Positions 13,327 through 42,847 of a stretch of DNA of 46,799 nucleotides are shown piece after piece; position 1 is the first letter of the stretch, and each line of letters opens with the position of its first letter. The translations under genes were made by a program, and so were the position numbers. The stretch spans positions 1-46,799 of the forward strand of contig JBBPIG010000024.1 of assembly GCA_038040445.1 (NCBI GenBank), written 5' to 3'. This stretch comes from Acidobacteriota bacterium (GTDB lineage: Bacteria > Acidobacteriota > Blastocatellia > UBA7656). Below the pieces are notes generated by a model that saw only the letters and a program-made list of their open reading frames with translations, searched no databases and was not told the DNA's origin.

Positions 13327-13387
13327 TCGGCGCCTTAGCAGACCGATGAAAGAGGGAGTGCGACAGCTCTCACGCCGGATGCCGATA

Positions 13388-13551: not shown

Positions 13552-13609
13552 AGGTGCGGCACGGCATTCTCATTGAACTTGCAGTGTATAGAGAATAGGG
13601 GGATATTCC

Positions 13610-17179
<3,570 letters not shown>

Positions 17180-25617: not shown

Positions 25618-26079
25618 ATGCAACCAGGAACAGCGATGGCTCCAATAAAGAGCCTCCGAAATCTCATGACAACGGACCCCTTCTTCATGCTTCAGAACAG
25701 GTTGAGCCGTCTTTACGAGCCATTTGCGGAGGAGAACTTTCCGCTTACTACATGGGTCCCGGCATGCGACATCTATGAGACAGCCAAAGAGATCGTCGTC
25801 AAAGCCGAGCTCCCCGGTCTCAAGAAGGAAGACGTCTTCGTCAGCATCGAGAACAATGTGCTGACGATCCACGGCGAGCGAAAGTTTGAAGAGGAGGTCA
25901 AGCGCGAGAACTTCCATCGTGTGGAGCGCACCTACGGCGAGTTCCTTAGGAGCTTCACAGTGCCGACCTTCACCGACGCAGACAAGATCCTCGCAGAGTT
26001 CAAAGACGGCCTGCTTATGGTCACCTTGCCGAAGCGCGAGGAATCGAAACCGAAGCAGATCGAAGTCAAAGTCAAGTAG
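25618..26079 (+). CDS. Hsp20/alpha-crystallin small heat-shock protein
   Basis: This 153-residue holdase chaperone has the alpha-crystallin domain at about residues 43-140: [43 protein letters not shown], then the A[13 protein letters not shown] end strand. It prevents aggregation of unfolding proteins in the cytoplasm. ATG 25618 is preferred over 25612 because AAGGAGGA then has an eight-base spacing. A tandem Crp-type promoter upstream and a strong terminator downstream make it a single-gene unit; control by a Crp/Fnr-type factor recalls dormancy- or hypoxia-linked Hsp20 genes. Confidence 0.95.
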
Positions 26080-26127
26080 TTTTCAAGGCGAACCCCTCCT
26101 GAGCACTTCATAGGGAAGTCGCCACTT

Positions 26128-26175
26128 ACAGCCGCAGGTTATATTCTCTCCTTCCGACCTGCGGCTGTTTTCTTT
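26128..26175 (+). terminator. Rho-independent terminator after Hsp20
   Basis: ACAGCCGCAGGT (26128-26139) pairs perfectly with ACCTGCGGCTGT (26157-26168) and runs into TTTTCTTT. It lies about 50 bases after the Hsp20 stop and just before the next tandem operator. Confidence 0.9.
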
Positions 26176-26191
26176 GCGCGAGAATCAGGTT

Positions 26192-26262
26192 GTGACGACC
26201 GTCACGACTAAGGGTGCACACCCTCACGGACTTCTCTCAGTTGTGGCCCCACAATCGAGACG
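26192..26262 (+). promoter_or_regulatory. Tandem Crp-type operator and promoter of a possible non-coding transcript
   Basis: Dyads GTGACGACCGTCAC (26192-26205) and GTGCACACCCTCAC (26214-26227, degenerate left half) start 22 bases apart. CACAAT at 26250-26255 fits the -10 element and gives a start near 26262. No convincing coding region follows before the next promoter at 26834. Confidence 0.62.
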
Positions 26263-26833
26263 GAGGCGGGCTGGAAATTTGAGTCAAACCAAATCCCGGT
26301 ATGCTGATTTTCCACCGAACCTATTTTTCAAACATGTCTAATATTGAACAGACACTTAGTGGCTCGCTTTGTATTATAGAGCGGTTTCCGGTTACGAGTA
26401 TGTCTAAACGATATGGCGATTCAAATTCAAGGATCGGCTTAAACCATTCACTCACTGGCGGCCTGTGTTGGAGTTCGATAAAGATCAACATCGGCGATTC
26501 AAGAGCCTAGAGACGAGGTGAATCAACTAAAGTCCCCTGTCCAACTTCGGATTGTTAGGAACTCCGACTAGACCGAGAGCCTTAAGGACCACTTCCAATT
26601 GTAATTCGGTTTGGGCGTTGAGCAAATCTGCCCACAGCCATGGGGGAAACTCTCATGAGGTTCCTAATGCGCCGAGGATTGACCGCCCGTCATCGCAAGG
26701 GCAGTCGCCCTCATACTACGGTAATCTGTTTGTTTTCACTGAGCACCTCGCGATGCTCAGCCCGGCGCTTCGGCTTAGTGGGTTGTGAACACTAATTGCC
26801 CTTGGTCGCTCTTTGAGTGTGATGACCTGACAC
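26263..26833 (+). ncRNA. Candidate regulated non-coding transcript or gene remnant
   Basis: This stretch of about 570 bases is more AT-rich than its neighbours. Short open frames (26301-26510, 26552-26788 on plus) lack ribosome binding sites and any family resemblance. A minus-strand stretch near 26535-26650 reads ADLLNAQTELQLEVVLKALG, which looks protein-like but has no start, so an old gene fragment is an alternative. Because a tandem-operator promoter points into it, I list it as a candidate RNA. No conserved fold was established. Confidence 0.25.
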
Positions 26834-26903
26834 GTGATGGCCGTCACGCCGACTGGTGACAGCGCTCATAGTTTTTTGGTTACGGAACATGTTAATTCGA
26901 TGG
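26834..26903 (+). promoter_or_regulatory. Tandem Crp-type operator and promoter of the decaheme/barrel operon
   Basis: Dyads GTGATGGCCGTCAC (26834-26847) and GTGACAGCGCTCAT (26856-26869) start 22 bases apart and are followed by TCATAG. GTTAAT at 26891-26896 fits a -10 element within one base of the usual place. The start near 26903 leaves a 24-base leader containing AAGGAGG. Confidence 0.75.
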
Positions 26904-26926
26904 TAGGACTAGAAGGAGGCACAACG

Positions 26927-27997
26927 ATGAGCCCGGTAAAACTATTAAAGACGGCGTTGGTTGCTTGCTGCGCTGCGTTGGGATTGTTGTATACGGCATC
27001 GAGTTCGCTGTCGAGTCCCGTCGATCCCGGCGGTCAGAAGAAGGCCCAACCCACTTCGTCGGCCAAGAGTTCGCCCGAAGACTTTGTCGGAAGCGAGACC
27101 TGCAAGGCCTGCCACGAAGAACAATTCAACAGCTTCTCCCATACGGCGCACGCCAAGCTTTCAAAGGCCGGCTGGAAGACGGAGAAGCAAGGCTGCGAAT
27201 CGTGCCACGGCCCCGGCAAGGCACACGTTGAAGGCGGTGGAGATAAGACCAAGATTCGGACCTTCGCCAATGAATCGCCGAAGCAAATGTCCGAAGCCTG
27301 CCTGCAGTGCCACGCCGGCAAGGAAGAGCACAACAACTACAAGCGGGGTGAGCACTGGCGCAACGACGTAGCATGCACCGACTGCCACTCACCGCACTTC
27401 TCCACCAGGCTCGCCGCGACGCTGGCGGGCGCGCCTCAAGGAAAGTCTGACGCGCCCTCTTCCCTGATCCCGGTAGGTCCCTTCTCGGCGCACTCGAATG
27501 ACCTGGCGCCTCCAAAGATGCTTCTCAAGAACGAGCCGCAACTGTGCATGACTTGCCATAACGAAACGAAGGCCCAGTTCACGCAGCCGTTTCACCACAG
27601 GGTTCTTGAAGGCGCGATGAAGTGCAGCGATTGCCACAACCCGCACGGCGGATTCGAATTGAAACAGGCAAGGCTCAACACTGGCGCGGATGCCGCGTGC
27701 ATGAAGTGCCACGCAGACAAGCAAGGCCCCTTCGTATTCGAGCACGCGCCCGCGAAAGTTGAAGGCTGTGCTATTTGCCACACGCCTCACGGATCAAGCA
27801 ATCCGAAGATGCTCAAGCGCACTAACGTGAATCAGCTCTGTCTGGAATGCCACAGCAACGTGGCGTTGAAAGTCGGTGAGATTGATACGCCTGGCATCCC
27901 AACTTTCCATAATCAGTCGACCGTGCGCTATCAGAACTGCACCACGTGTCATATGAAGATTCACGGCTCGAACAATAGTCCGGTTTTCTTCCGGTGA
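26927..27997 (+). CDS. Decaheme c-type cytochrome (DmsE/MtrA-like)
   Basis: This 356-residue periplasmic protein has a signal peptide (LVACCAALGLLYTAS region) and ten CXXCH sites: CKACH, CESCH, CLQCH, CTDCH, CMTCH, CSDCH, CMKCH, CAICH, CLECH and CTTCH. Ten hemes, the VGSETCKACHEEQ opening and NPHGGFE-type spacers match the DmsE/MtrA family, whose members thread through an outer-membrane barrel and pass electrons across it. ATG 26927 follows AAGGAGG; longer upstream frames precede the predicted transcript start. The barrel gene begins 35 bases downstream. Direction of electron flow (export or Fe(II) oxidation as in PioA) cannot be told. Confidence 0.93.
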   Translation: MSPVKLLKTALVACCAALGLLYTASSSLSSPVDPGGQKKAQPTSSAKSSPEDFVGSETCKACHEEQFNSFSHTAHAKLSKAGWKTEKQGCESCHGPGKAHVEGGGDKTKIRTFANESPKQMSEACLQCHAGKEEHNNYKRGEHWRNDVACTDCHSPHFSTRLAATLAGAPQGKSDAPSSLIPVGPFSAHSNDLAPPKMLLKNEPQLCMTCHNETKAQFTQPFHHRVLEGAMKCSDCHNPHGGFELKQARLNTGADAACMKCHADKQGPFVFEHAPAKVEGCAICHTPHGSSNPKMLKRTNVNQLCLECHSNVALKVGEIDTPGIPTFHNQSTVRYQNCTTCHMKIHGSNNSPVFFR

Positions 27998-28032
27998 GAG
28001 GTTATGTCCGACAAAAGTCGAGGAGGGATCCT

Positions 28033-30282
28033 ATGAAAAGCAAGGTTGGATTTGCGCTGCTGTTTCTGTTCGGGTTTGTGCTGGGACTCGTGCTTTTGGC
28101 TAACGATGCGCGAGCGCAGCAACCCGCCACTGATAAGGACAAGGCGCAGCAACCCGCCACCGATAAGAAGAACAAGGCGCAGCAGCCCGCCACTGATAAG
28201 GACAAGGCGCAGCAACCCGCCACTGATAAGGACAAGGCGCAGCAGCCCGCCACTGATAAGGACAAGGCGCAGCAACCCGCCACTGATAAGGACAAGGCGC
28301 AGCAGCCCGCCACTGATAAGGTCAAGGCCGGGCAGCCTGCCGCGAGTGCACAGAACGGCGTGGAAGGACCTTACACGATAAACTCGAGCATCGAGTTTGG
28401 CGTTCGTGGGATCGCGATCAACGGTAACGCCGACAAGTATCGGAGCGATCTGAACTATACTCCGGGCTTTCGCATCTTTGATTCGAGCCTTTTTATGCGG
28501 TCCAAGGACAACAACGGTCCGGTTTTCGACACGCTCATGATGAGTTCATTTGGCTGGGGCAACGACCCGAACAAGTCCCTCCGAGTCAGCGCGGAGAAGA
28601 CGAAGGTTTATCGCTTCGACGCGAACTATCGGCGGTTTGATTATTTCAACAGCCTCAGGAATATCGCGCTGGGCCAGCACACCTCGAACACCGAGTACCG
28701 GCAGGGCGATTTCAACCTCACCATCCTGCCGCAGAATGAGAAGGTCAGGTTCAACCTGGGCTACTCGCTCGACCGGAACAGCGGGCCGTCGGTATCGACG
28801 ATTCGCTTTAACGGAGACGAGTACCCGGTCGCCAACCCTGTGCGTATGGCTGCCGACGAGTACCGCGTCGGGGTCGACGCGAAAGTCTCGGTGTTCGATC
28901 TGTCATTCCTGCAAGGCTGGCGCTTCTTCAAAGAAGACAATGAGTACCTCGTGACAGTGCCAAATGCCGGCAATAATCTTACAAATACCGCGAAGATTAC
29001 CGATTTCTATCGCAATGCTCCGACGCGCGGTAACACACCGTTCACCCGGTTCAGTCTTCACACGCTGATCAAGAAGAAACTCGACTTCACCGGCCGCTAT
29101 ATCTACACGAGTGGCAGCACCAACTACACCTTCTTCCAGAACGGAACAGGAGTCGATTCGTCCGGAAACAAAGTCACCTCGGACATAATCCAGGTGCAAG
29201 GCAACGCGAAACGGCCGAACGGGATGGGAGATCTCGCGGCGACGTTTTACGTTGCCGACCGGTTCCGGATTTCAGAGACGTTTCGGGTGAACAACTTCCG
29301 CATCAATGGCGGGGACCTGCTCGCAGAGGCCCTCCGCCGGTCGAAGCCGACCGCGTCCGGCGACACGGTGCTTCCGCCGGTGCTCACCAACACGCTCTCC
29401 TTCCGTACGATCGACTATCGCCGCTATATGAACACGATCGAAGCCGACTGCGATGTAAGCCGGTGGCTATCGATTCACGCGGGCTACCGCTACACCGACC
29501 GTCACATCGAGATTGGCAGCAGCGACATCGCCGTCGGGACGACGGCAAACCCGGCGCTCGAGCAACTCGACAACAGTACCAACACCTTTATCCTGGGGCT
29601 CAAGATGAAGCCGCTGAAGATATGGTCGGTGTACTTTGACCTCGAACGGGGCGCCGCCGACAACGTGTTCACGCGGGTTGATAACTACAACTTTACGAAC
29701 GTTCGTGTCCGCAGCATTCTGCGGCCGAACAAAACGCTATCTTTCAACGCGTCGCTGGTGACTAAGGACAACAACAACCCGTCCATAGCCGAGGACAACA
29801 GGAATTTTGGCGTAAACGTCAAGTCCAGGGTCTTCACATCCTCGGCCGACTGGAGTCCTAACGAGAAGTTCTCGCTCAACGGCGGCTATACGCGCGCCAA
29901 CGTCACAAGCGATGCTCAGATCATTTTCTTCCTGACCGGCAGCCTGAAGACATTCGGTGAGAGCCGATACTTCCAGCGGGACAATTTCGTTTTCGTAAGC
30001 GGGTTCGTCCAGCTCCATCCCCGCGCACAACTGTTTGCCGGATCTCATCTCCACAAGGACCCAGGACAGGGTGATCGACTTTCGACCACCTCGGTGTTAA
30101 TCGGGTCGTTCCCGTATGAGTTCCAGTCGTCGGAGGCAAAGTTCGTCGTCAAGCTCAACAAGAATGTTGAATGGATCGCCGGGTATCAGTACTTCGACTA
30201 CAAGGAGCAGTTCATCAACCGGCAGTTTTATCATGCCCACTTGCCGTACACGTCGCTGCGCATCAACTTCGGACGTGAGTAG
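28033..30282 (+). CDS. MtrB/PioB-like outer-membrane beta-barrel protein
   Basis: This 749-residue protein has a signal peptide ending near ANDARA, a repetitive low-complexity segment (residues about 28-98) and then a long alternating beta-strand pattern ending in aromatic-rich SLRINFGRE, as outer-membrane barrels do. The pattern INSSIEFGVRG near the start of the barrel and its place after a decaheme cytochrome fit the MtrB/PioB family, which forms the sheath for an MtrA-type wire. MtrB proteins often carry a CXXC near the N-terminus; none is seen here. ATG 28033 follows GAGGAGGG. Confidence 0.85.
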   Translation: MKSKVGFALLFLFGFVLGLVLLANDARAQQPATDKDKAQQPATDKKNKAQQPATDKDKAQQPATDKDKAQQPATDKDKAQQPATDKDKAQQPATDKVKAGQPAASAQNGVEGPYTINSSIEFGVRGIAINGNADKYRSDLNYTPGFRIFDSSLFMRSKDNNGPVFDTLMMSSFGWGNDPNKSLRVSAEKTKVYRFDANYRRFDYFNSLRNIALGQHTSNTEYRQGDFNLTILPQNEKVRFNLGYSLDRNSGPSVSTIRFNGDEYPVANPVRMAADEYRVGVDAKVSVFDLSFLQGWRFFKEDNEYLVTVPNAGNNLTNTAKITDFYRNAPTRGNTPFTRFSLHTLIKKKLDFTGRYIYTSGSTNYTFFQNGTGVDSSGNKVTSDIIQVQGNAKRPNGMGDLAATFYVADRFRISETFRVNNFRINGGDLLAEALRRSKPTASGDTVLPPVLTNTLSFRTIDYRRYMNTIEADCDVSRWLSIHAGYRYTDRHIEIGSSDIAVGTTANPALEQLDNSTNTFILGLKMKPLKIWSVYFDLERGAADNVFTRVDNYNFTNVRVRSILRPNKTLSFNASLVTKDNNNPSIAEDNRNFGVNVKSRVFTSSADWSPNEKFSLNGGYTRANVTSDAQIIFFLTGSLKTFGESRYFQRDNFVFVSGFVQLHPRAQLFAGSHLHKDPGQGDRLSTTSVLIGSFPYEFQSSEAKFVVKLNKNVEWIAGYQYFDYKEQFINRQFYHAHLPYTSLRINFGRE
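28114..28326 (+). repeat. Seven tandem in-frame 30-bp repeats in the barrel gene
   Basis: Six 30-base units and one 33-base unit encode AQQPATDKDK-type decapeptides directly after the signal peptide. The Gln codons alternate CAA/CAG in later units, implying a 60-base higher-order unit from recent duplication. The array should vary in copy number by slippage or recombination without breaking the frame. Confidence 0.95.
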
Positions 30283-30528
30283 CAGCAAGTGCAACTTTGA
30301 GGGAAGCAGGATCTGCGTAGTTACTCCCAATACTGGGGGAATCTACACGACTCGCTGCGAAAAGCGGTCATCGGGCCTGGGTTACGGCCCATTCTGCAGC
30401 GGAATGGTTGTTGCCTTGTAAGTCAGTGACGAACTCAGGACGGTCACTGGTGAGCGTCGGCGACAAAACGATCCAGCAAGGACTAAGAACGCCGCCGACA
30501 CGATTCGACGGAAAGTGGAGGGAGAATA

Positions 30529-30891
30529 ATGAGAATTTCGATATCGGCAATGAAAAAGGTCGTCGCCGCAACGGCGACGGTTTCGACACTGGCACTGATG
30601 ATTCTGTTCCAGACCAGTTCGCAAGCGATGATTTCACCTGCTGCAGACGGAGCAAGCGTGTTCAAAGCGAAATGCGCGATGTGCCACGCCGCTGACGGGA
30701 GCGGGAGCACCACGGCCGGCAAAAGCATGAAGGCGCGCGACCTTCGCTCAGCAGAAGTCCAGGGCCAAACCGATGAGCAGCTCTACGGCATCGTCGCTTC
30801 GGGAAAGGGCAAGATGCCCGCTTATGAGAAAACGCTCGGGGCAGATTCATGCAAGGCTCTTGTCGCCTATATCCGCACACTCAAACAGTGA
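30529..30891 (+). CDS. Small monoheme cytochrome c, copy 1
   Basis: This 120-residue periplasmic cytochrome has a signal peptide and one heme site in FKAKCAMCHAADGSG. The likely distal Met lies in GKGKMPAYEKTL. The overall pattern (GASVFKAKC, DLRSAEVQGQ, LVAYIRTL) is that of c6/c553-type shuttles. GGAGGGA precedes ATG 30529; ATG 30550 is an alternative. It is a close paralogue of the gene at 31156, sharing about half its residues, and stands between the barrel gene and the Rieske/cytochrome b cluster. Confidence 0.9.
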   Translation: MRISISAMKKVVAATATVSTLALMILFQTSSQAMISPAADGASVFKAKCAMCHAADGSGSTTAGKSMKARDLRSAEVQGQTDEQLYGIVASGKGKMPAYEKTLGADSCKALVAYIRTLKQ

Positions 30892-30934
30892 GGACCACCC
30901 CTGAGCGTCGCGGTTTAGACACCAGTTTCGTTCG

Positions 30935-30966
30935 GACGAGCCATCGTGCACTCACGATGGCTCGTC
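30935..30966. repeat. Strong short-loop hairpin
   Basis: GACGAGCCATCGTG and its exact complement flank a CACT loop. It lies 43 bases after the first small cytochrome gene. A T-tract is missing, so it may be a stability element or a weak terminator. Confidence 0.8.
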
Positions 30967-31155
30967 GAACTGTTCGTTGAAACGCAGCACGTTTTAACGA
31001 ATCAGGACAGGAACAAGATTCAAGCCAGTTCGTTTCTGATTGTGCCGTAGAGTCGGGAACGCCCGACTACTCTAGAGCAGTAACCTTCTCGCCGTGGAGA
31101 AGAGGTTGCTGCTCACGTTTGCTAATAGCGGGATACAAGAAAGGTGGAAATGCGC

Positions 31156-31509
31156 ATGAAGATTCTCGTCAAGCGACTAGGCCTCACGGCGGTCACGATT
31201 GCCGTGCTGCTTGCGCTGTTTTTGATCCAGAGCCAGACGCCAGCTATGGTCTCACCAACTGACGACGCCGCAGGGCTGTTCAAAGCAAAGTGCGCTGCGT
31301 GTCACGGCTCGGACGCGAGCGGTAACACTAAGATGGGAAAAACCCTTAAGCTTCGCGATCTGCGATCCGCTGCGGTGCAAGGCCAGTCGGATGCCCAACT
31401 ATTCAATATCATCTCCAAGGGTAAAGGCAAAATGCCTGCTTACGGAAAAAGCTTGAGCCAGGAGCAGATTCACCAGCTTGTGGCCTTTATTCGCGGGCAG
31501 AAGCGCTGA
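31156..31509 (+). CDS. Small monoheme cytochrome c, copy 2
   Basis: This 117-residue protein has a signal peptide (about residues 8-27) and a single heme site in FKAKCAACHGSDASG, with a probable Met ligand in GKGKMPAYGKSL. It is a paralogue of the cytochrome at 30529 (shared DLRSAxVQGQ and LVAxIR blocks). ATG 31156 is favoured over ATG 31150 and GTG 31144 because AAGGTGG then has normal spacing. The Rieske gene follows 42 bases later, so it could be the soluble acceptor of that complex. Confidence 0.9.
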   Translation: MKILVKRLGLTAVTIAVLLALFLIQSQTPAMVSPTDDAAGLFKAKCAACHGSDASGNTKMGKTLKLRDLRSAAVQGQSDAQLFNIISKGKGKMPAYGKSLSQEQIHQLVAFIRGQKR

Positions 31510-31551
31510 GTGACCTCGCGAGTGTAGTGAGCGCGAACTGGAGATCGTGCT

Positions 31552-32070
31552 GTGAAAACACCAACCCACCAAGAGTCTGTGGAGCACCTCGGAGAATCCT
31601 CGCAACGCCCAAACGGCAATTCCAAAGCGCAAATGGAGCTAGATAATACCGGCAGGCGACGGTTTCTCAACTACCTTCTCGGAACCGGCTTCGGCGCCAC
31701 GCTGATTGCGATCTTCTACCCGATTATCAAGTTCATAACACCGCCGCAGGTAATCGAAGCAACACAGAATTCCGTTACCGCGGGAAAGGTGAGCGAGCTG
31801 GCGCTCAATTCGGGAACGATATTCAAGTTCGGCAACAAGCCCGGCCTCTTGATTCGCTCGGCGGCGGGCGAGCTCAAAGCTTTTTCTGCTGTGTGTACTC
31901 ACCTCGACTGCATAGTTCAGTATGAACCCGACAAGAGACAAATCTGGTGCGCCTGTCATAACGGGCAATACAACCTTAGTGGTCAGAATGTCGGCGGCCC
32001 CCCGCCTCGGCCGCTTGAAGAATACGTCGTGAATACCCGCGGCGAGGAGATTGTCGTTTCAAAGGCATGA
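31552..32070 (+). CDS. Rieske iron-sulfur protein of a cytochrome bc-type complex
   Basis: This 172-residue protein has one N-terminal membrane helix (about 41-62) preceded by [12 protein letters not shown], and a Rieske domain with CTHLDC (115-120) and CACHNG (133-138). These supply the two Cys and two His that hold the [2Fe-2S] cluster and the two Cys that form the disulfide. It takes the first electron from quinol. The start is GTG 31552 with TGGAGA upstream. Its stop overlaps the cytochrome b ATG (ATGA). Confidence 0.95.
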
Positions 32071-33137
32071 AGCTTATGAATGCAGAAACCGTGAGGCTTT
32101 GGCTCGATGATCGCTTGGGCATTGGCTCGATCGCCGCGGTGGCCCGCAAGAAGGAGATTCCGGTTCACCGCCATTCGATCTGGTACTACTTCGGCGGAAT
32201 GACATTGTTTCTATTCAGCGTGCAAGTCGTCACCGGAATACTTCTTCTTTTGTACTATCGCCCCAGCGCGGAAACCGCCTTCGAGAGCGTCCAGTTCATC
32301 ATCACAGAAGTGAAGTTCGGATGGTTGATCCGCTCGGTGCATAGCTGGTCGGCCAATCTGATGATCGCAACGCTCTTCATTCATATGTTCAGCGTTTATT
32401 TCATGAGTGCGTATCGCCGGCCGCGCGAGATGACATGGTTGAGCGGAGTGATGCTGTTGCTCCTCGCCGTCGCTTTTGGCTTCAGCGGGTATTTGCTTCC
32501 GTGGAACAAGCTCGCTTTCTTCGCCACGAAGGTCGGGACCGAGATTGCAGGAGTGATTCCCCTGGTCGGCAGGCCGATGCTTAGATTTCTTCGCGGCGGC
32601 GACGATGTCACCGGAGCCACGCTCACCCGGTTCTTCGGTTTTCATGTGGCGGTGCTGCCCGCGATCACGACCGTCATAATCGGCACCCACCTGATGCTCG
32701 TGCAAATGCATGGTATGAGCGTTCCGCCCGGCTTAGAGGGACAGAATATCAAGAAGATGAAGTTCTTCCCGAACTTTTTCCTTCGCGATTTGATTGGGTG
32801 GGTCCTGGCTATCGGCGCTCTTGCAGCGCTTGCCGCGCTGTTCCCGTGGGAACTCGGCGAGAAGGCCGATGCGTTTGCATCGGCTCCCGCGGGAATCAGA
32901 CCGGAGTGGTACTTCCTGTTCATGTTTCAGACGTTGAAGTTGATTCCGCCTAAGATTCTTTCTTTTGACGGCGAAGTCATAGGCATCCTCGCGTTCGCGG
33001 TCGGGGGGTTGATGTTGTTTATCGTGCCGTTTCTGGATAAACCGGGGAACCCTCGCAGAAAACGCGTGTTTACGGTTATCGGAGTGATCGTCGTTCTCTA
33101 CATCGTTGCGTTGACGATCATCGGTTACCTCGATTGA
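32067..33137 (+). CDS. Cytochrome b subunit of a bc-type quinol oxidoreductase
   Basis: This 356-residue protein has about eight membrane helices. The heme-ligand His pairs lie in [12 protein letters not shown] with FIHMFSVY, and [10 protein letters not shown] with [12 protein letters not shown]. The quinol-site motif PEWYFLF is present in the C-terminal part. The sequence combines the b6-like and subunit IV-like parts in one chain, as in many bc complexes. The final six codons overlap a TTG in the frame of the next gene. A nonaheme cytochrome follows instead of a cytochrome c1. Confidence 0.95.
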
Positions 33138-33151
33138 GGGAGACTACGGCG

Positions 33152-34450
33152 ATGAAGCCAAAGAGTATCGCGGCCACGAACGCAAAAAATCGCTTTCGCG
33201 CTTTCAAGCTGGCTCCGCTGATCGCGCTTCTTATGTTCGCCACCGTTTCCGCGCAGAAGAAAGACTCTTGCGTCGAATGCCATTCACAAATGGAAGGCGC
33301 GCTATCTGAAGCTGTGCGTTTGTCAAAAGGCGACGTGCATGATGCTCGTGGTCTGTCATGCGTCGATTGTCATCGTGGTGATGCGACTAAAGATGATATG
33401 GCTGCGGCCATGGATCGACGGAAGGGCTTCATAGGGAAGCCAAAACCAGCAGACCTGCCGGCATTCTGCGGAAGGTGTCACAGCAACGCTGATTTCATCA
33501 AGACGTTCAATCCGGGACTGCGAGTAGATCAGGAACGCGAATATTCCACCAGCGTTCACGGCAAACTGCTTAAGGGTGGAGATCAGAAGGTCGCCACCTG
33601 TGTAAGCTGTCACGGCAGTCACGGTGTTCGAGCGATCAATGACCCGCTTTCGAAAGTTTTCTCTCTTAACGTGGCCGAGACCTGCGGCTCGTGTCACGCG
33701 AACGGCGAGTACATGAAGAGCTACAACATTCCGCACGATCAGTTCGACAAGTACAAAACAAGCGTCCACGCGAAGGCTTTGTACGACAAGCAGGATCTCT
33801 CTGCGCCGACTTGCAATGATTGTCACGGCAATCACGGAGCTGCCCCCCCGGGCCTTGCGTCCGTAGCCAACGTTTGCGGGCAGTGCCATGTGCGTCAAGC
33901 CAGTCTGTTCAAGTCGAATCCTCACAAGACCGTGTTCGCACTCATGCAAGTTGGGGAGTGCATTCAGTGTCACAGCAATCACGGAATAATGCCTCCGAAC
34001 GATGAAATGCTCGGCGTCGGGGACCAATCCGCATGCACTCAATGCCACGGTCAGGGTGACAGCGGATATGCAGCAGCCGAAAAAATGAAAGCGAGAATGG
34101 ATGAGATGTCGGCGAGCATAAGCAGATCCAACGACATCCTCAACCGCGCCGAAAGAGCGGGCATGGAAGTCAGCAAAGCCAAGTTTGAATTGACTGAGGC
34201 GAAGGACGCGCTAACTCAAGCGAGAGTTATGGTGCACACATTCTCGACCGACGAACTGGATAAGGTCATAAATCCCGGGCTCGATATTTCAAACAAAGGC
34301 TACAACGCTGGCGGAGCCGCCCTGGCCGAGCTGAGTTTCAGACGAAAGGGACTCGCCGCATCGCTATTCTTCATTCTCTTTTTCGCTGCTTTGATCTATC
34401 TGAAAGTGAGAGAGGTCGAGAAGAGACAAGCTCTTCAGAAACAATCGTGA
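33152..34450 (+). CDS. Nonaheme cytochrome c subunit of the bc-type complex
   Basis: This 432-residue protein has a signal peptide, nine CXXCH motifs (CVECH, CVDCH, CGRCH, CVSCH, CGSCH, CNDCH, CGQCH, CIQCH, CTQCH), a helical segment of about 90 residues and a C-terminal membrane helix ([15 protein letters not shown]). It lies 14 bases after cytochrome b, so it probably replaces cytochrome c1 as electron exit and anchors itself by its tail. Similar multiheme bc-type complexes are known from metal-reducing and anaerobic bacteria. ATG 33152 follows GAGGGA. Confidence 0.92.
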
Positions 34451-34558
34451 GTCGAAGTTTTGATTTCACCAGCAAAAGCTAGTACTCAGTCACGCTCAAG
34501 GTGATGGACCAAACCAGTCGAGTTCGCAGTCTGGCACTAAGACGGGAGGGCGCAGAAA

Positions 34559-36199
34559 ATGGCCTCTCCGGATCCGCACGGACTTAACCAACCGGCCTCG
34601 TTGCAAGAACTAGACGCGAGGCTATCCCGCATCGAGCGATATCTTGGATTAGAGTCGCTCGACCGCTCTGCTTCCAAATCCGCCCCGGCCGACTCCGGCA
34701 ACTTCGTCGCGCAGAAAACTGACTATCAGGAGGGCTCCGGGCTCGAAGCGAGTATAGGAGAGTTCGGGCTCGCATGGATTGGCAGTATCGTGTTCTTTCT
34801 CGGCGTCGTTTTCCTTATCACTTATACGTACAGTCTCGGCCACAGAGTGGTAGCAACGATCGTGGGATATCTTGCCGGCGCAGGCCTGTACTTCGCTGCG
34901 GGCTTCTGGAAGTCACGCGCCTCGCATTTGTCTCGCATACTGGTGGCCGGCAGCCTGTTGCTGCTGTTCTACACGACAATGCGGTTGCATTTTTTCTCCC
35001 CCACCCCCTTGATCGACAACTCTTATATCGTTCTAGTGTGTCTCTTGATCGTAGTGGCGTTTCAGCTCTACCTGGCCGTTCGCCGCGATTCTCAATCCCC
35101 GGCAACCGTTGGGATTCTCATGGGAATGGTAGCGGCGCTGTTGATTGATCGGACCCATATTGAATTGCCGCTTGTGGCCACATTCTCAGCCGTCTCGGTG
35201 TACCTCGCGGTCCACCGTGGTTGGCGGCGTCTATTAAATGCGAGCATCGTCCTTGCCTACGCTGCGCACTTGTTCTGGCTGTTGAACAATCCTCTGGCGG
35301 GTCATCCCGTACAAGCCGTAACCGAACATCACTACCATCTTGTTTATTTGTTTCTATACGCCGCAATCTTTTCATTGCCATTGCTTCTTGAGAAGCAATT
35401 ATCGGCCGAGGATGTTTCTTCGGTCGCGATGATATTTCTCAATTGCATAGGATTCAGCGTCCTGGTGTTCCTTGCCGTGCTGACTCATTTCCAGAAAGAT
35501 TTTGCTGCAATTTCCAGCGGCGTGTTCGGGCTCTTGATGGTTTCCTCGATTGCCCTCTGGATAAGGACCAATCGCCAGCTTGGACCTGCCATCTACGCGT
35601 GCTTTGGATTCATGGCGCTGAGCATCGCGATCTACGGATACGCGGCGATTCCAAGATCATTCCTCTGGCTATCCTTGCAGAGCTTACTCGTGGTATCGAT
35701 CGCATTGTGGTTTCGATCCAAGGTCCTAGTCGTAGTGAACTCGTTCATATATGTTGGAATTCTCATCGGGTACTTTGTTCTGTCGCCTTCTTCGCATCCG
35801 GTCAATTTCAGCTTTGCGTTGGTTGCGCTAGCAAGCGCGCGAGTGATGAACTGGCAAAAAGAGCGCCTGACTCTTCGCACGGAGATGCTGCGGAATGTCT
35901 ACTTGTTCATTGCTTTCGTTCTGATTTTTTACGGGCTTTATCGATCGGTGCCAGGGCAATACGTCACGCTTTCCTGGACTCTGACCGCGGTTGGATATTT
36001 TCTGCTGAGTTATTTGCTGAAGAGCGGCAAGTATCGTCTGATGGCTATATCGGCGATGCTGGTGTCAGTTCTTTACCTCTTCCTGGTTGATCTGGCGAGT
36101 CTGGACCCGCGATTCCGTGTTGCGGCGTTTCTGTTTCTTGGGTTGATGGCGGTGATGATCTCGCTTTACTACACGAGAATTAGAAAGCTATTGCACTAA
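34559..36199 (+). CDS. DUF2339-like polytopic membrane protein
   Basis: This 546-residue protein has a short soluble N-terminus with a coiled-coil-like segment (LQELDARLSRIERYL) and then about 14 or more hydrophobic helices with few polar residues. The layout (coiled coil, then FGLAWIGSIVFFLGVVFLI) resembles DUF2339 proteins, which have no established function. GGGAGGG precedes ATG 34559. It is co-directional with the bc-type cluster, 108 bases behind it, and its stop codon overlaps the stop of the opposite multiheme cytochrome gene. Confidence 0.72.
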   Translation: MASPDPHGLNQPASLQELDARLSRIERYLGLESLDRSASKSAPADSGNFVAQKTDYQEGSGLEASIGEFGLAWIGSIVFFLGVVFLITYTYSLGHRVVATIVGYLAGAGLYFAAGFWKSRASHLSRILVAGSLLLLFYTTMRLHFFSPTPLIDNSYIVLVCLLIVVAFQLYLAVRRDSQSPATVGILMGMVAALLIDRTHIELPLVATFSAVSVYLAVHRGWRRLLNASIVLAYAAHLFWLLNNPLAGHPVQAVTEHHYHLVYLFLYAAIFSLPLLLEKQLSAEDVSSVAMIFLNCIGFSVLVFLAVLTHFQKDFAAISSGVFGLLMVSSIALWIRTNRQLGPAIYACFGFMALSIAIYGYAAIPRSFLWLSLQSLLVVSIALWFRSKVLVVVNSFIYVGILIGYFVLSPSSHPVNFSFALVALASARVMNWQKERLTLRTEMLRNVYLFIAFVLIFYGLYRSVPGQYVTLSWTLTAVGYFLLSYLLKSGKYRLMAISAMLVSVLYLFLVDLASLDPRFRVAAFLFLGLMAVMISLYYTRIRKLLH

Positions 36200-37113
36200 A
36201 AGCGGAATGTAGGACCCTGATGGCACCGCTTGCAATTTGCAAAGCTCGCGATGCCAAAGGCTCTCTCGTCGTTGTGACATGTTTCGCAACTCTGCCCGCG
36301 CTGCGATGCAGGATGCTCGGTCGGTAGTGGCGAGCTGACCTGTGCCGCGCGCGACGGGAAGCTGGTGATCTTGTGGCATTCCAGGCAGCTGATCCCCTGC
36401 CGTTTGTGTTGCTCGTGGCTGAAACTAACTTTGAACGCTTTCGAGGACATCGAAGCGCGGGAGTGCTGACCGGGCTTGTGACAGGTGGCGCAAGACGAAA
36501 TATCCTGGCCGTTCGCTTGAGCGCGCGGGGTATGACACTGATAACAGGTTGTGTGTGCGGCGGCTCCCGACGGTATCGACAACGCGACCCCCTTGCTCGC
36601 CGGTTTATGGCAAGTGGCGCACGCAACATTCCGATGTCGCGGGTGCGCAAAAGTCATGTTGAAGCTTCTCAAAGACGGGAAGGGTTTTATTTGCGCGCTC
36701 ACTGATTCTACGCTGGTATGGCAAATGGTGCATATCGGGCCGCTCGAAGCAGCAAACTGTTCCTTGTGGCAGCCGGCGCACGGCGTGTGCTGCACAGAAC
36801 GAATGGGCCGGGGCGCATTGCTCTCCCGGCGATGGCACAACAGGCAAGGAAGCCGCTCATGACTTCGATCGCCGTGTGAGAATTTAGAGAAATCCTGGTT
36901 GCCTTGCTGCGCTCCTGCCGAGGCTAAAGCGGCAATCGAGAACTGAGACTTCGGTTTCGCTGACACCGCGGACAGATGCCAGTCATACACAACATCTGAC
37001 GCCACGCAAAAGCATCCAGCGACCAGGAATACAAGCTGGATCCAACGTCGCTTAGGATCGCCCGGCGGCCTCGGCCAGACGCTTTGCTCAATTGGTTCTG
37101 GCGAGTTCGTCAT
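36196..37113 (-). CDS. Nonaheme cytochrome c with N-terminal anchor
   Basis: This 305-residue protein has one hydrophobic segment near residues 24-42 and nine CXXCH motifs: CLLCH, CAGCH, CTICH, CATCH, CYQCH, CATCH, CLECH, CETCH and CKRCH. Repeated FSHxxH-type segments (FAHPRHRNVAC, FSHEQHKRQGIS) supply distal His ligands, as in cytochrome c3/c7-like proteins. The specific family is not recognised. The gene starts six bases after the stop of 37120-38379, a coupled pair. It ends tail to tail with the DUF2339-like gene, overlapping by three bases. Confidence 0.88.
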   Translation of the reverse strand: MTNSPEPIEQSVWPRPPGDPKRRWIQLVFLVAGCFCVASDVVYDWHLSAVSAKPKSQFSIAALASAGAQQGNQDFSKFSHGDRSHERLPCLLCHRRESNAPRPIRSVQHTPCAGCHKEQFAASSGPICTICHTSVESVSAQIKPFPSLRSFNMTFAHPRHRNVACATCHKPASKGVALSIPSGAAAHTTCYQCHTPRAQANGQDISSCATCHKPGQHSRASMSSKAFKVSFSHEQHKRQGISCLECHKITSFPSRAAQVSSPLPTEHPASQRGQSCETCHNDERAFGIASFANCKRCHQGPTFRF

Positions 37114-37119
37114 AACCGA

Positions 37120-38379
37120 TTACTTTTTTTGGGCTGCAGAGACTGCGCTAATATGAGTTTCCGGCGGCGGATTCTTCCCGTTCAGAGCGTGACACTTGGT
37201 GCACTGAAAAGTCGGATTCGCTTTCTTCTTATCGATCTCCAAATTCAGAATACCGTCGGCCGTCGCTTCGATATGACACCCGGTCCCTTCGCCCGCGCAC
37301 GATTTCACCTGGGTCCTCGTTCTCTTATCGAGCGTGTTCAGGGTCGCGACATTGTGACAACTCGTACAGCTCAAGCTCGAATGAGAAATCCACTCGTGTC
37401 GAAACTTCGCAGTGTGCCGTCCGCTCCACCTCTCTAACGTCAGTTTGTCGTTTATTCCCATCGCTGCCGCGAGCTTCGGATCTAAGTCGTCATGAGCTTG
37501 TGTTAACGAGGGGCGTTGGGCGGGCGGCAGAAGCTTATGGCAAGTGCCACAGTCCGACGAGGCAGGTTGTATTCCGTCCTGTGCATGACAGGTGAAACAA
37601 ACTGCGTGTGTCGGCGTGGTCTTGAACGCGCCCTTCTTCAGCCAGAAAGCATCCTCCGGCAAACTCTTTGGGGGCTTGGTGACGTACTCTTCATCCGACT
37701 CGCCTTGCGGCTGATAAGTCTTGTGGCAGACTGCGCAACTTTTTGGCTCGCTTTCTTCAGCCTTCGGCTCGTTCTTCTTTTCCGGTTTATCCTGCTCGAA
37801 TATGGCAGGCAAGAACCGAACGGGCCGCTTGGTTTTCTTATCGGGCTGATATAGCCCCACGATGTCCACGTGTTTGTCGTGAGGGAAACCGATGCCAAAT
37901 TCGGAAACGAAGGTCTGTCCTTGTTTCGAGGCGTTAAAGATTTCAATCGGATTGGGGAATGGATGTCGTGAACTGTCTCGCGGCGAAGGATTCGTGTGGC
38001 AGATCGTGCAGATCACCGGCTGGGCCCCGGTGAAGAACTGTTGGCGGTGGCACTTTACACACGAAGAATGCTCAGGGAAATCCGTCACGTCCGGGAAGGC
38101 GGAATCGCCGGTACGGACTTTGTTCCAGTTAGCCGTCGGAAACTTGTGGCAAGCATTGCAGGCTAACTGATGCTGCGCGATGCTGTGAGAAAACTGCGAA
38201 TAGTTGCGGCGCTGAGATGGTTTCGTCGCCGTTGATTTCGTATTGCGCTTTGCTTGAGACGGGCGCTGGGGTTCGTTTTCCGGGCTCGACCCGATCGCCA
38301 TCGAAGACAGGAACATCTGCCCGAGTCCCAGCAAACAAGTCACGGCGAGAATAGTGGACTTAGCTATTCGACCTCTCAT
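37120..38379 (-). CDS. Multiheme cytochrome c (eight CXXCH plus one CX6CH)
   Basis: This 419-residue exported protein has a signal peptide (about residues 8-28) and eight canonical heme motifs: CNACH, CVKCH, CTICH, CAVCH, CFTCH, CGTCH, CTSCH and CTKCH. Between the last two lies CAGEGTGCH, a C-x6-C-H that could be a ninth, non-standard attachment site. A Lys/Glu-rich linker (EQDKPEKKNEPKAEESEPK) separates an N-terminal triheme part from the rest. It is the first gene of a two-gene minus-strand unit with the nonaheme protein. Its partner and terminal acceptor are unknown. Confidence 0.87.
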   Translation of the reverse strand: MRGRIAKSTILAVTCLLGLGQMFLSSMAIGSSPENEPQRPSQAKRNTKSTATKPSQRRNYSQFSHSIAQHQLACNACHKFPTANWNKVRTGDSAFPDVTDFPEHSSCVKCHRQQFFTGAQPVICTICHTNPSPRDSSRHPFPNPIEIFNASKQGQTFVSEFGIGFPHDKHVDIVGLYQPDKKTKRPVRFLPAIFEQDKPEKKNEPKAEESEPKSCAVCHKTYQPQGESDEEYVTKPPKSLPEDAFWLKKGAFKTTPTHAVCFTCHAQDGIQPASSDCGTCHKLLPPAQRPSLTQAHDDLDPKLAAAMGINDKLTLERWSGRHTAKFRHEWISHSSLSCTSCHNVATLNTLDKRTRTQVKSCAGEGTGCHIEATADGILNLEIDKKKANPTFQCTKCHALNGKNPPPETHISAVSAAQKK

Positions 38380-39193: not shown

Positions 39194-39289
39194 CCTGGGA
39201 GCGCAGGCATCCCTGCCTGCCTTTCTTCTTCCCAGGGATTTTGTCGGCAGGCGGCAACGCGCGCAGGCAGGGATGCCTGCGCTCCCAGG
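39194..39289. repeat. Perfect 27-bp inverted repeat upstream of the CbcL-like gene
   Basis: Positions 39194-39220 and 39263-39289 are exact complements, core word GGGAGCGCAGGCATCCC. The right arm ends at the GGGGAGAG that serves as Shine-Dalgarno for ATG 39300, so folding could influence initiation. Confidence 0.92.
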
Positions 39290-39299
39290 GGAGAGATCA

Positions 39300-41240
39300 A
39301 TGAAGCGCTCTGTTTCGATCGGGACGGTGTTGCTGTTCATCTTCTTTGCGACCTATGAGCTCACAAGCAGGGCTCACGCGCACGATCAGCCTGCCATAGC
39401 TAGTTCGGCTCTGAGTTTCGAGACGACTCAAGCTTCCGATGCCAGATCGGCTGCGAAGGAAAAGGCCAGCGGTCCCGCGCTTGACTGCAGCGCCTGTCAT
39501 GGAGCAGGAAAGGCTCTCCCTTATCTAGGGGGCGCCCTCTTTCATGCTGGCGCACATAGAGCTTACGATCGCGGTTTTCACGGGCGGGCGATTCAAAACG
39601 GGAAGAAAGCAGCTAGTTGTGTCGATTGCCATTCGATCGCCGGCGATATGAAAACAATCCTGCCGGCGAGCGACCCGAGATCCACAATCAATCGAGCCAA
39701 CCTGGCCAAGACCTGCGGCTCCTGTCATGGTGACAAGTCCGCTATGACCGGGACCGGCATCAGCAATCGCCCGTTTATCTCGTATCAGGAGAGCGTTCAC
39801 GCGCGCGCAGTTTCGCGAGGCAACACGAAAGCCGCGGTCTGCACCGACTGCCACAACAGCCACGACATATTGCCCGCGTCGGATGCCGATTCCCCCATCT
39901 TCAAGCCGAACATCCCGAGGACCTGCGGCCAGTGTCACTCAAAGATCGAGGCCGAATACAACCAGAGCGTTCACGGCGAAGCGGTAGCGCGTGGCGTTTC
40001 GCGCTCGCCGGTGTGCACTGACTGTCACGGCATTCACAGCATTAAGCCGCACCTCGATCCGGCCACCTCGAAGACTTCGCGATCGCTGGCCACTGGAAGC
40101 TGCTCGCAGTGCCACGAAGGGGTTGCGTTGTCGCAGGAGTTTGGCGTTGCCGGAGGACGCGTAAGCAGCTATCAAGAGAGCTATCATGGCCTTGCGTCAA
40201 AGCTGGGCTCCAAGTTTGTGGCTAATTGCGCAAGCTGTCACGGGGTCCACAACATCTTGCCGTCTTCCGATTCGCGCTCGATGATCAACCCCGCCAATCT
40301 CATCAGTACGTGCGGCCAGTGCCATCCGGGAGCGAGCGAAAACTTTGTTATCGGTAAACTCCATCTCAATGTTCCTGCGTCGCAGGACACTAGCTCGGCG
40401 TCGCCGGACATTGGCAGCACCATGACGGGCTGGGTGCGGTGGGTATATCTCTGGCTGATCGGTGTGGTCATCGGGGGAATGATCGTTCATAATGTGCTCG
40501 TCTGGCTCAGGAAGGCCCTTGCAAAACGCCGGGATCCCGAGCGCTCGATTCCCCGAATGACTGGTATGCAGCGCTTCCAGCATTGGGTCTTGCTCACAAG
40601 TTTCATTGCCCTCGTGCTGACAGGCTTCGCGCTCAAGTATCCGGATTCCTGGATCGCCCCTTTGTTGGGCGGCAGTGAAGCATTCAGGCGCGTCTGCCAT
40701 CGCGCTGCCGGCATGATCTTGCTGGCAGTCGGGCTTTTTCACCTAGGCTACCTCGCCTTCACAAGAGAAGGCCGCAGAGGATTGATCGACTTGTTGCCGC
40801 GTAAGAAGGACGTCACGGATTTTGCGCAGGCCGTGTCCTACCATGTTGGCGCGAGAACGTCTAAGCCGAAGTTCGCCAGGTTCAACTACGGCGAGAAGTT
40901 AGAGTATTGGGGCGTAGTGTGGGGCACGACTATCATGGGCCTCACAGGAATGATGGTGTGGTTCAAAGTTGAAATGTTCAGCTTCCTGCCGAGATGGTGC
41001 ATAGACGTTGCGCTGTCAATCCACTTCTATGAAGCAATTCTTGCAACTTTGGTCATCGTGGTCTGGCACTTCTACAATGTGATCTTTGATCCGGACGTGT
41101 ACCCCCTCAACTGGTCACTGGTAGACGGCCGCGTTTCAGAAGAGTATTACAAGGAAGAGCACGAACTCGACTATGACCAGATCATGTCTGCTAGGCGAGA
41201 GCCGCAAGAGAAGCAGGATCACACTGGAGAGATGAAATGA
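39300..41240 (+). CDS. cbcL: CbcL-like fusion of nonaheme cytochrome c and diheme cytochrome b
   Basis: This 646-residue inner-membrane protein has a signal sequence, nine CXXCH sites in its first 370 residues (CSACH, CVDCH, CGSCH, CTDCH, CGQCH, CTDCH, CSQCH, CASCH, CGQCH) and a C-terminal HydC/FdnI-type b-cytochrome domain. Likely heme b ligands lie in FQHWVLL, VCHRAAG, LFHLGY, SIHFYE and VWHFYN. Known case: Geobacter CbcL has the same design and oxidises menaquinol for low-potential extracellular acceptors. GGGGAGAG precedes the ATG. Its last four bases (ATGA) overlap the start of the ImcH-like gene. Confidence 0.85.
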
Positions 41241-42847
41241 GTGAAGACCGGGAGGTTTCCCGCAAGCCGCCTCGGCTGTTTCGCAACTTCATTAGTCTTA
41301 TCGGGGCGACTATTGTTGCCGCAAGCCTCGCCAGCATCCTTTTCCTATTCCTCACCGAGATGCTTGGCGCAAGAAGCAAGCCCTATCTCGGAATATTCAC
41401 CTACATCGTCTTTCCGGCCGTCATGATTTTCGGTTTGGTGACTGTACTCGCCGGTATGCTAATCGAGCGGCGACGTCGCCACAGGGCCGGCGCGTCAGGG
41501 TCGTCAGGCTTGGGGACTTACCCACACATAGACTTGAACGACCCTCGGCGCCGGCGCTCGCTGATGACTTTCATCGTCCTGATGTTTGTCTTTATCTTCG
41601 TTAGCGCATTCGGCAGCTACCGCGCATACGAGTTCACCGATTCAGTCGTATTCTGCGGCCAGCTCTGCCACGCGGTGATGAAACCCGAGTTCGTCGCCTA
41701 TCAAGCTTCGCCACACGCGCGAGTCAAATGCGTGGAGTGTCACGTTGGCCCGGGCGCAGGCTGGTACGTGAAGTCAAAGATGTCGGGAGCGTATCAGCTC
41801 TATTCCGTCACGTTCAACAAATTTCCCAGGCCGATTCCAACCCCTGTGCACGACCTCAGACCCGCCCAGGACACGTGCGAGCAGTGTCACTGGCCCGAGA
41901 AGTTTTTTGGCGCGCAGTTGAAGATCTTCAACCGGTTTGGATATGACGAAAAGAACACGCTAAATCAAACTCGCATGCTGATAAACACGGGCGGTGGCGG
42001 CGCTTCCAGCGGAAGGGTCGAAGGTATTCACTGGCACATGAATATCGCGAATGAGATTACCTACATTTCGACCGACGACCAGAGGCAGACAATTCCGTGG
42101 GTAAGGGCGAAAGACCACGACGGCAACATAACGGAGTACAAGACGCCGGATTTTCAAATGTCAGCAGCGGAAATCGAAAGCGCCCAGAAGCGACGAGTCG
42201 ATTGCGTCGATTGCCACAACCGGCCCGCTCACATTTATCTTCCGCCCGATCGCGCTGTTGACGAAGCTCTCGTCGGCGGGAGGCTCGATGCTTCACTTCC
42301 ATTCTTGAAACAACAGGCGGTCGCCGCGTTAACAACAAACTACGAGACGACCAGTGAAGCTGTGAGCGGAATCGCCTCGAGCCTCGGTGACTACTATGCC
42401 CGCAATTACCCCGACGTTTATGCGAGCAAGCGCGATTCGGTTAATGGGGCAATCGAGGAGTTGCAGCGCATCTTTCAGACCTACTTTTTCCCCGAGATGA
42501 AGGTCGACTTCCGGACTCATCCGAACAACATCGGCCACTTCTACAACCTCGGTTGCTTCCGGTGCCACGACGGCAACCACGTCAGCGACGCGGGCAAGAA
42601 AATCAGGACGGATTGCAACATCTGCCACACCGTGCTTGATCAAACCCAGGGCGAGACGCATCTAGCCGTGCAAAAAGGGGCTTTTCAGCATCCTGTGGAT
42701 GTTGGGCCGTTGTCGGGGTTCAAGTGCACCGACTGCCATGAAGGAGCCGGCGCCTTCAAGCATCCAGTCGATCTCGGTGATATCTCGCAATTCAAGTGCA
42801 CTGATTGTCATTCGGGAACAAAGGCCGAAGGAAAAAAGATTCGGTAG
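41237..42847 (+). CDS. ImcH-like NapC/NirT-family multiheme quinol dehydrogenase
   Basis: This 536-residue protein has three N-terminal membrane helices (about 20-45, 52-75, 110-130) and eight heme sites: CGQLCH (C-x3-CH) followed by CVECH, CEQCH, CVDCH, CFRCH, CNICH, CTDCH and CTDCH. The stretch [12 protein letters not shown] with [16 protein letters not shown] is the NapC/NirT quinol-site signature. Three helices plus a multiheme tail is the design of Geobacter ImcH, the menaquinol oxidase for higher-potential extracellular electron transfer. The C-terminus has two near-identical FKHPVDxGxxSxFKCTDCH repeats. It is translationally coupled to the CbcL-like gene. Confidence 0.83.

Follow-up and report, generated by a model that had tools for sequence, protein, structure and literature searches.

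How can two adjacent genes be recognized as an electron conduit through the outer membrane when the Pfam model for such barrels, PF11854 (MtrB_PioB), does not match the barrel, and in which direction would the conduit carry electrons? These questions are raised by a contig of 46,799 nucleotides (JBBPIG010000024.1, assembly GCA_038040445.1) from an Acidobacteriota bacterium of the class Blastocatellia, which in its whole length we call the window. A preliminary description, made from the sequence alone, reported a ten-heme protein of DmsE/MtrA type followed by a large barrel. Both stand: the cytochrome has ten CXXCH motifs and scores 257.5 bits with the DmsE-family model TIGR03508 (cutoff 192.2), its stop codon ends at 27997, and after a gap of 35 bases the ATG at 28033 opens a barrel gene of 749 residues. 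We interpret the two genes as an MtrAB-like wire, with electrons most likely exported to an external acceptor under low oxygen, and we give this reading a probability of about two in three. Within it the fold, the conserved heme ligands, the gene pairing, and an operator conserved in relatives are supported; we infer complex formation, location, direction, acceptor, partner, and oxygen sensing.

Consider first the cytochrome. Its gene is the sole place in the window's genome above the TIGR03508 cutoff, and all 46 aligned decaheme sequences match that model at 0.001. The same 46, at the same threshold, match the GSU2203 family NF041028, for which the window protein's score of 223.5 bits lies below the curated cutoff of 325. 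The nearest solved chain by sequence is MtrA of the Mtr complex (6r2q_A, E-value 1.3e-32), and the decaheme profile finds this chain with an E-value of 1.5e-47, covering profile positions 9–336 of 342. One concern raised beforehand was that the decaheme protein could be too short to span the barrel; we see no shortfall, as the alignment with MtrA of the solved complex runs across its ten heme motifs. Apart from the ten heme motifs, all invariant in the 46 sequences, the window included, exactly ten histidines never vary, at positions 75, 100, 143, 157, 224, 240, 273, 288, 328, and 346 of the 356-residue protein. As this conservation implies, each of the ten hemes would be bis-histidine, with one distal histidine ligand apiece. 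The open reading frame (ORF) had been described as 26834–27997 on the forward strand; its stop and its motifs hold, but its true start is very likely the ATG at 26927. We reject the GTG at 26834, which sits in the palindrome GTGATGGCCGTCAC, and a Shine-Dalgarno sequence, GAAGGAGG at 26912–26919, stands ahead of the later ATG.

The structure of the barrel protein was predicted with AlphaFold2 from an alignment of 30 sequences. A failed barrel prediction had been named in advance as one outcome that would speak against a conduit; the model instead came out confident, with a predicted local distance difference test (pLDDT) value of 81.9, good from about residue 111 and with low confidence at residues 17–110. 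Foldseek places MtrB (6r2q_B) first with an E-value of 9.8e-15, the next among the matches listed being at 2.6e-12. With VIA-align, MtrB has a Z-score of 24.6 over 565 aligned residues, at a root-mean-square deviation of 3.7 Å and 12% identity, and the second-best entry among the matches listed has 16.3; the structural matches that rank next after MtrB are TonB-dependent receptors. The predicted barrel is of MtrB type with about 26 strands (the count is approximate). MtrB of the solved complex is described as having a cap helix that separates strand 1 from strand 2, and four short strands at its beginning (PMC7198977). The window model likewise has a helix at residues 133–139 between strands 114–125 and 145–157, and its first four strands are short, with 12, 13, 7, and 10 residues.

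At the level of sequence the barrel has no Pfam family match at 0.01, and a search against solved sequences returns no match above chance; the link to MtrB therefore rests on fold. Members of PF11854 elsewhere in the same class reach 335.9 bits (six checked), and among relatives of the window barrel the model matches 1 of 30 (E-value 3.5e-4), and 0 of 39 at 0.01 in another alignment. We reject membership in PF11854 on these model misses and on weak profile–profile scores. Thus the preliminary label "MtrB/PioB-like" survives for the fold and fails for the sequence family. The GSU2204 model NF041027 matches 17 of the 30 relatives at E-values up to 1 (best 1.5e-6) and 13 of the 39 at 0.01 (best 2.3e-10); the window barrel itself has no match to it. 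Judged by these family models, the nearest named family to the barrel appears to be Geobacter GSU2204, and the nearest named pair GSU2203/GSU2204. The practical consequence is that surveys of extracellular electron transfer using PF11854 alone would undercount these bacteria: 76 of 147 related genomes contain the window's barrel family, whereas the model picks out a barrel in 12 of the 147 and none in the window's genome.

How constant is the pairing? The barrel gene is the only match of its kind in the window's genome, and at 1e-10 the barrel profile matches 67 of 297 genomes drawn from the phylum. The best 80 of 115 confirmed stretches give 79 related loci. All 79 are titled as metagenome-assembled genomes (MAGs), many of them soil-derived, with titles that include Blastocatellia bacterium, Pyrinomonadaceae, and Chloracidobacterium; genes are therefore the chief evidence on the respiration of these bacteria. 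Directly upstream of the barrel there is a multiheme ORF in 77 of 80 cases in these named genomes, and the other 3 barrels begin at contig ends, so that the pair is adjacent in 77 of 77 testable cases. The upstream ORF has 10 CXXCH motifs in 70 of the 77, 11 in 3, 8 in 2, 6 in 1, and 4 in 1. In three Blastocatellia loci (L138, L139, and L141) a decaheme–barrel pair of the window's barrel family has next to it a second pair of PF11854 type, whose cytochrome ends in IHGSNHPSGINLQR.

The proposal of an outer-membrane electron conduit is thus supported by the predicted fold, the bis-histidine hemes implied by conservation, the adjacency, and OmcA/MtrC genes found beside the pair in relatives; that the barrel encloses the decaheme protein is very likely. 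In the mechanism we propose, the barrel would insulate the cytochrome inside it from the outer membrane, and the ten bis-histidine hemes would pass electrons from the periplasm to the cell surface. Quinol is the most likely electron source: the membrane modules encoded nearby, of NapC type or of b561/nine-heme or Rieske/cytochrome b/nine-heme composition, would take electrons from it, and periplasmic cytochromes would hand them to the conduit. The final acceptor could be Fe(III), humics, or another outside acceptor, reached directly from the last heme or via an anchored nine-heme cytochrome (36196–37113) in the place of MtrC, and a Crp/Fnr-type regulator would turn the genes on at low oxygen.

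The expression "minimal wire" had been used for the pair. The pair is there, but it does not stand bare, since inner-membrane and periplasmic electron carriers are encoded alongside it (Table 1); the multiheme proteins of the window have 10, 9, 9, 8, 9, and 7 heme motifs. Among 52 Blastocatellia-side loci, 36 encode a relative of the NapC/NirT-type protein and 36 a Crp/Fnr-family regulator; 35 have 8/9-heme proteins and 33 a small mono-heme cytochrome. Rieske genes occur in 10, and so do cytochrome b genes. A nine-heme gene of the 33134–34450 type comes after Rieske and cytochrome b in related loci (e.g., L048, L050, and L053). No further multiheme gene is common to as many as 4 of the 25 Terriglobia-side loci. 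These shared-gene counts take in contigs that end early.

What could switch the wire on? A "tandem operator" had been proposed ahead of it. Two palindromes of CRP/FNR type do lie at 26192 and 26834, but they are 642 bases apart, and no direct repeat was found in 26080–27000. The window as a whole holds 20 matches to this palindrome family (at most two mismatches, both strands counted) versus 2.17 expected, and they recur in intergenic gaps at 4207, 10993, 12711, 20511, 25158, 25228, 26192, and 26834; a regulon is partly readable from a single window. A scan of 26000–34700 for sigma-70 promoters found 3, versus 3.4 in shuffles. In relatives, 32 of 50 Blastocatellia-side cases have TGTGAN6TCACA, with one mismatch allowed, in the 350 bases ahead of the decaheme gene; 0.6 are expected from a control that shuffles in two-base steps and is not a strict dinucleotide shuffle. 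Among the 50 are two loci with Terriglobia titles, L043 and L044, and a pair of genes from L052; four shortened decaheme ORFs were left out of the test. In 6 of the 32 (L047, L069, L070, L071, L073, and L082) a second palindrome lies exactly 22 bases away; with this spacing of two helical turns, these six relatives have a true tandem operator, without counterpart in the window.

The Crp/Fnr-family regulator at 11954–12673 is a possible controller of the conduit. We aligned it with 33 relatives chosen at 36% identity or more and above 200 residues: the motif CX2CX8C is present in 27 of the 34 (the window and 26 of the 33 relatives), and the C112 column is cysteine in 29 of the 34. The corresponding motif of E. 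coli FNR is CX2CX5C. The motif suggests an FNR-like iron-sulfur sensor, and the closest solved relatives of the regulator include both CRP- and FNR-type proteins. Another palindrome, at 4207–4220, lies about 100 bases before ORF 4319. This ORF opens a run of genes to 10564 that begins with amidohydrolase- and SDR-like genes (by eye) and continues with genes of 2-hydroxyacyl-CoA-dehydratase and BcrAD/BadFG type (by Pfam for 7493 and 8745, the rest by eye), and by its gene content it looks like a class I benzoyl-CoA-reductase-like cluster. Enzymes of the 2-hydroxyacyl-CoA-dehydratase/BadF type are oxygen-sensitive, and the palindrome ahead of the run is in keeping with anaerobic use.

The preliminary description also stated that no gene of MtrC/OmcA type follows the pair, and took the terminal partner to be either missing or new. 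The absence is borne out for the whole genome, where the best of 20 candidates, all 20 scored, reaches 16.3 bits with the OmcA/MtrC model versus a cutoff of 209.3. In each related genome we scored up to 7 candidates for OmcA/MtrC, 4 for the barrel profile in the phylum-wide set, 15 for the nine-heme gene, and 12 for the eight-heme gene, and absences there are less firm because the number of candidates is limited. OmcA/MtrC is above cutoff in 9 of the 147 relatives, all nine of which bear the barrel (9 of 76 versus 0 of 71 without it). We examined the OmcA/MtrC stretches of all nine, which for G038 means the fragment beside the pair. In three genomes the gene stands shortly ahead of the pair: G010, where a NapC-type gene intervenes, G022, and G038, where the end of the contig truncates it. 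Behind the pair, G022 and G038 have genes for Rieske, cytochrome b, and nine-heme proteins resembling those of the window. In G014, G018, and G030 it is on the barrel's contig and strand, about 6–10 kb away, and in G026, G034, and G041 it and a barrel of the window's family are on separate contigs. The window's barrel family thus does occur beside OmcA/MtrC, which the window's lineage lacks.

Which protein, then, could take the place of MtrC? The best candidate partner, still unproven, is the pair of eight-heme and nine-heme cytochromes at 36196–38379. Among the 67 barrel genomes without OmcA/MtrC above cutoff, the nine-heme gene is found in 54 and the eight-heme gene in 52, and none of the nine OmcA/MtrC genomes has either one among the candidates scored. 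This mutual exclusion has a Fisher p of 3.5e-6 among the candidates scored, uncorrected for kinship, which confounds it, as the nine genomes make up three families (f5, f7, and f9). A further 28 of the 147 genomes match the OmcA/MtrC model weakly, below cutoff; in some instances (e.g., G083 C64, G068 C8, and G071 C86) what the model picks up is the 8- or 9-heme gene itself. Against the 8/9-heme proteins as partner, 13 barrel genomes have none of the nine-heme gene, the eight-heme gene, and OmcA/MtrC. A lipobox is seen by eye in 14 of 35 loci with nine-heme relatives (two decaheme rows left out), and by pattern in 12 of 37 relatives or 18 of 35 loci, depending on the pattern; the window's nine-heme protein has a hydrophobic start of ambiguous type. 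We consider it doubtful, if worth stating, that in this Blastocatellia branch a membrane-anchored 8/9-heme pair replaced MtrC/OmcA, that it docks on a barrel family undetected by PF11854, and that the whole chain is switched by Crp/Fnr. Under this same doubtful joint reading, the pair would be a class of terminal partner not recognized before for MtrAB-like conduits. Should the outer cytochrome have been exchanged on an unchanged wire, these bacteria would offer an experiment of nature on which component determines the acceptor. By analogy, a surface partner may be unnecessary, as MtrAB without MtrC is described to deliver electrons to soluble Fe(III) (PMC7198977, PMC4245776).

Other multiheme proteins exist in the window's genome, of which we examined the stretches indicated by family models. 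One of them, on contig C3, is a nine-heme protein that begins with a lipobox-like sequence. It belongs to a cluster at 1342–8064 of L131 made up of a 1377-residue nine-heme, a 4-heme, an 8-heme, and this 9-heme protein; the latter two have distant similarity to the window's 8/9-heme pair. At 10773–13940 the same locus encodes a protein of 1056 residues in which, by eye, eight heme motifs and ferredoxin motifs are combined with FHA-like and flavoprotein-like domains. A 5-heme gene 3′ of the barrel in the near relatives L040, L041, L043, and L044 was tried as a partner and rejected, with no match in the window's own genome in a search that had no positive control.

Several observations weigh against an exporting conduit under low-oxygen control. 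PF11854 has no match in the window barrel or anywhere in its genome, and two hhalign comparisons of the barrel profile with PF11854 members from its own class are weak, one giving 41.2% over 38 columns and the other 8.6% over 105. The decaheme model, built without hemes, is poor as well (pLDDT 63.4), and we discarded it; 6r2q_A (MtrA) was its sole match under an E-value of 0.001. The OmcA/MtrC model identifies no surface cytochrome for the window's conduit, and among genomes lacking the barrel, 21 have the nine-heme gene and 21 the eight-heme gene. In the 25 Terriglobia-side loci the pair stands without the other modules, and 0 of 23 Terriglobia-side cases have the palindrome upstream of the decaheme gene. 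The regulator gene is 14 kb from the conduit. The palindrome at 26834–26847 has two mismatches to TGTGAN6TCACA, and the one-mismatch site lies about 720 bases upstream, so that the window would fail the operator test used for its relatives. The palindrome at 12711 is followed by a short ankyrin-like ORF, and the pyruvate:ferredoxin oxidoreductase gene begins 0.9 kb on; that this site is not directly before that gene, together with the two mismatches of the near operator, weakens our reading somewhat in favor of electron uptake. Finally, Crp/Fnr-type control leaves the direction of electron flow unfixed.

The last point brings us to the alternative that survives best, namely, that the same wire runs inward as in PioAB or MtoAB, with Fe(II) or some other external donor supplying the electrons. 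PioAB and MtoAB are decaheme–barrel pairs without an extracellular cytochrome (PMC5566968, PMC4245776), and homologues of PioA and PioB are described from Acidobacteria (PMC10654088). The palindrome at 4207–4220, of the same kind, precedes genes of a heterotrophic enzyme type, which speaks against uptake. So does the company of OmcA/MtrC in relatives, as the best-studied members of that family reduce minerals. On balance we regard inward flow as unlikely, if a serious competitor. Still less probable is that the wire supplies an enzyme on the cell surface whose acceptor is soluble, in the way DmsE and DmsF serve the dimethyl sulfoxide reductase DmsAB: the curated family of the cytochrome is indeed DmsE, but no molybdopterin oxidoreductase appears among the 20 window ORFs scanned with Pfam (no genome-wide search was made), and the gene clusters common to the 25 Terriglobia-side or the 52 Blastocatellia-side loci show, by eye, no enzyme directly tied to the pair. 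That the barrel serves ordinary transport, as a porin or TonB-type receptor, and adjoins a periplasmic decaheme protein by chance is hardly credible, even with TonB-dependent receptors next best in structure and 1 of 39 relatives weakly matching TonB_dep_Rec_b-barrel, given that MtrB leads by 8 Z units over 565 residues, that adjacency holds in every testable case, and that OmcA/MtrC adjoins the pair in three relatives.

Table 1. Features of the window that bear on the putative conduit, its electron supply, and its control.
Feature	Coordinates	Strand	Basis or remark
Crp/Fnr-family regulator, CX2CX8C and conserved C112	11954..12673	+	Pfam cNMP_binding and HTH_Crp_2
CRP/FNR-type palindrome GTGACGACCGTCAC	26192..26205	.	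one mismatch; ~720 bases before ATG 26927
CRP/FNR-type palindrome GTGATGGCCGTCAC	26834..26847	.	80–93 bases before ATG 26927
DmsE/MtrA-type decaheme cytochrome c, 356 residues, signal-like N-terminus	26927..27997	+	TIGR03508, MtrA match, invariant histidines
Beta-barrel, 749 residues, MtrB fold, outside PF11854	28033..30282	+	AlphaFold2 model, Foldseek, VIA-align
30-bp tandem repeat, 7.1 copies, charged N-terminal linker ahead of the barrel	28114..28328	+	repeat detection
Mono-heme c-type cytochrome	30529..30891	+	Pfam Cytochrome_CBB3
Mono-heme c-type cytochrome	31144..31509	+	Pfam Cytochrome_CBB3
Rieske iron-sulfur protein	31552..32070	+	Pfam Rieske; NCBIfam PetC-like below cutoff
Cytochrome b, b6/bc type	32067..33137	+	Pfam Cytochrome_B, E-value 1.6e-54
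Nine-heme cytochrome, C-terminal membrane anchor (by eye)	33134..34450	+	9 CXXCH, Paired_CXXCH_1
Nine-heme cytochrome; candidate terminal or outer-membrane-docked partner	36196..37113	-	9 CXXCH
Eight-heme cytochrome, companion of the nine-heme one	37120..38379	-	8 CXXCH
Nine-heme cytochrome fused to b561-type membrane domain	39273..41240	+	Pfam Ni_hydr_CYTB and Cytochrome_C7
Seven-heme NapC/NirT-type membrane cytochrome, possible quinol dehydrogenase	41237..42847	+	Pfam Cytochrom_NNT

The tandem repeat in the barrel gene codes for AQQPATDKDK in the N-terminal linker, and a relative of the same genus (L004) has about one copy of it. Elsewhere in the window, 861–3227 encodes a protein of 788 residues whose second half is an MFS transporter by Pfam and whose first half resembles, by eye, ActF of alternative complex III; it is apparently an ActF–MFS fusion.

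Porin-cytochrome complexes (PCC), including similar decaheme–porin clusters, are already published for Acidobacteriota. They are described in Holophaga (PMC7399161, PMC11748539), and MtrABC in three hot-spring Acidobacteriota MAGs (PMC9671151). Acidobacterial decahemes were noted in peat in 2013 (PMC3669403), and a wastewater study reports multiheme proteins in 50 of 50 Acidobacteriota MAGs, 31 of them Blastocatellia, with substrates unknown (PMC8100337). In a cave study, 21 of 36 PCC-bearing MAGs are Gammaproteobacteria or Acidobacteriota; its "Group 2" clusters have a small decaheme adjoining a porin of 25–36 strands, 6 of 8 with ImcH- or NapC/NirT-like proteins and several with petB/petC (PMC13264449). 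We liken these to the window by description; the portion of that report consulted is silent on a regulator, an operator, an 8/9-heme pair, and any relation to OmcA/MtrC. In the open-access literature, with most papers judged without full reading, we found none that deals with the Blastocatellia members of this barrel family, with its operator, or with an 8/9-heme exchange, and none treating OmcK together with MtrA, Geobacter, and porin.

How does the window compare, then, with the systems already known? PCC4 shares with it a porin and periplasmic multihemes with no extracellular cytochrome, and differs, as described by He et al. 2017, by a membrane protein of five helices and by proteins with 4, 5, and 10 hemes (PMC5566968). 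PioAB and MtoAB share the decaheme, the barrel, and the lack of an extracellular cytochrome (PMC5566968, PMC4245776), and differ in being known for Fe(II) oxidation (PMC10654088, PMC4245776). The Geobacter sulfurreducens pair GSU2203 (OmcK)/GSU2204 is close in its family models, since the window decaheme matches NF041028 and many barrel relatives match NF041027, but the decaheme falls below the NF041028 cutoff and the window barrel has no NF041027 match. A review table terms the GSU2204 family an MtrB/PioB-family barrel (PMC13188914), both Geobacter genes are reported to be up with hematite and magnetite (PMC4070692), and OmcK is tabled as extracellular (PMC13194489). With MtrAB of Shewanella (PDB 6R2Q) the window shares a decaheme aligned over nearly its full length, the barrel fold with its cap helix, and adjacent genes; it differs in a barrel that is 12% identical in the structural alignment and lies outside PF11854, and in that no MtrC was found in its genome. 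The device is thus of a known kind, with a barrel from a separate sequence family.

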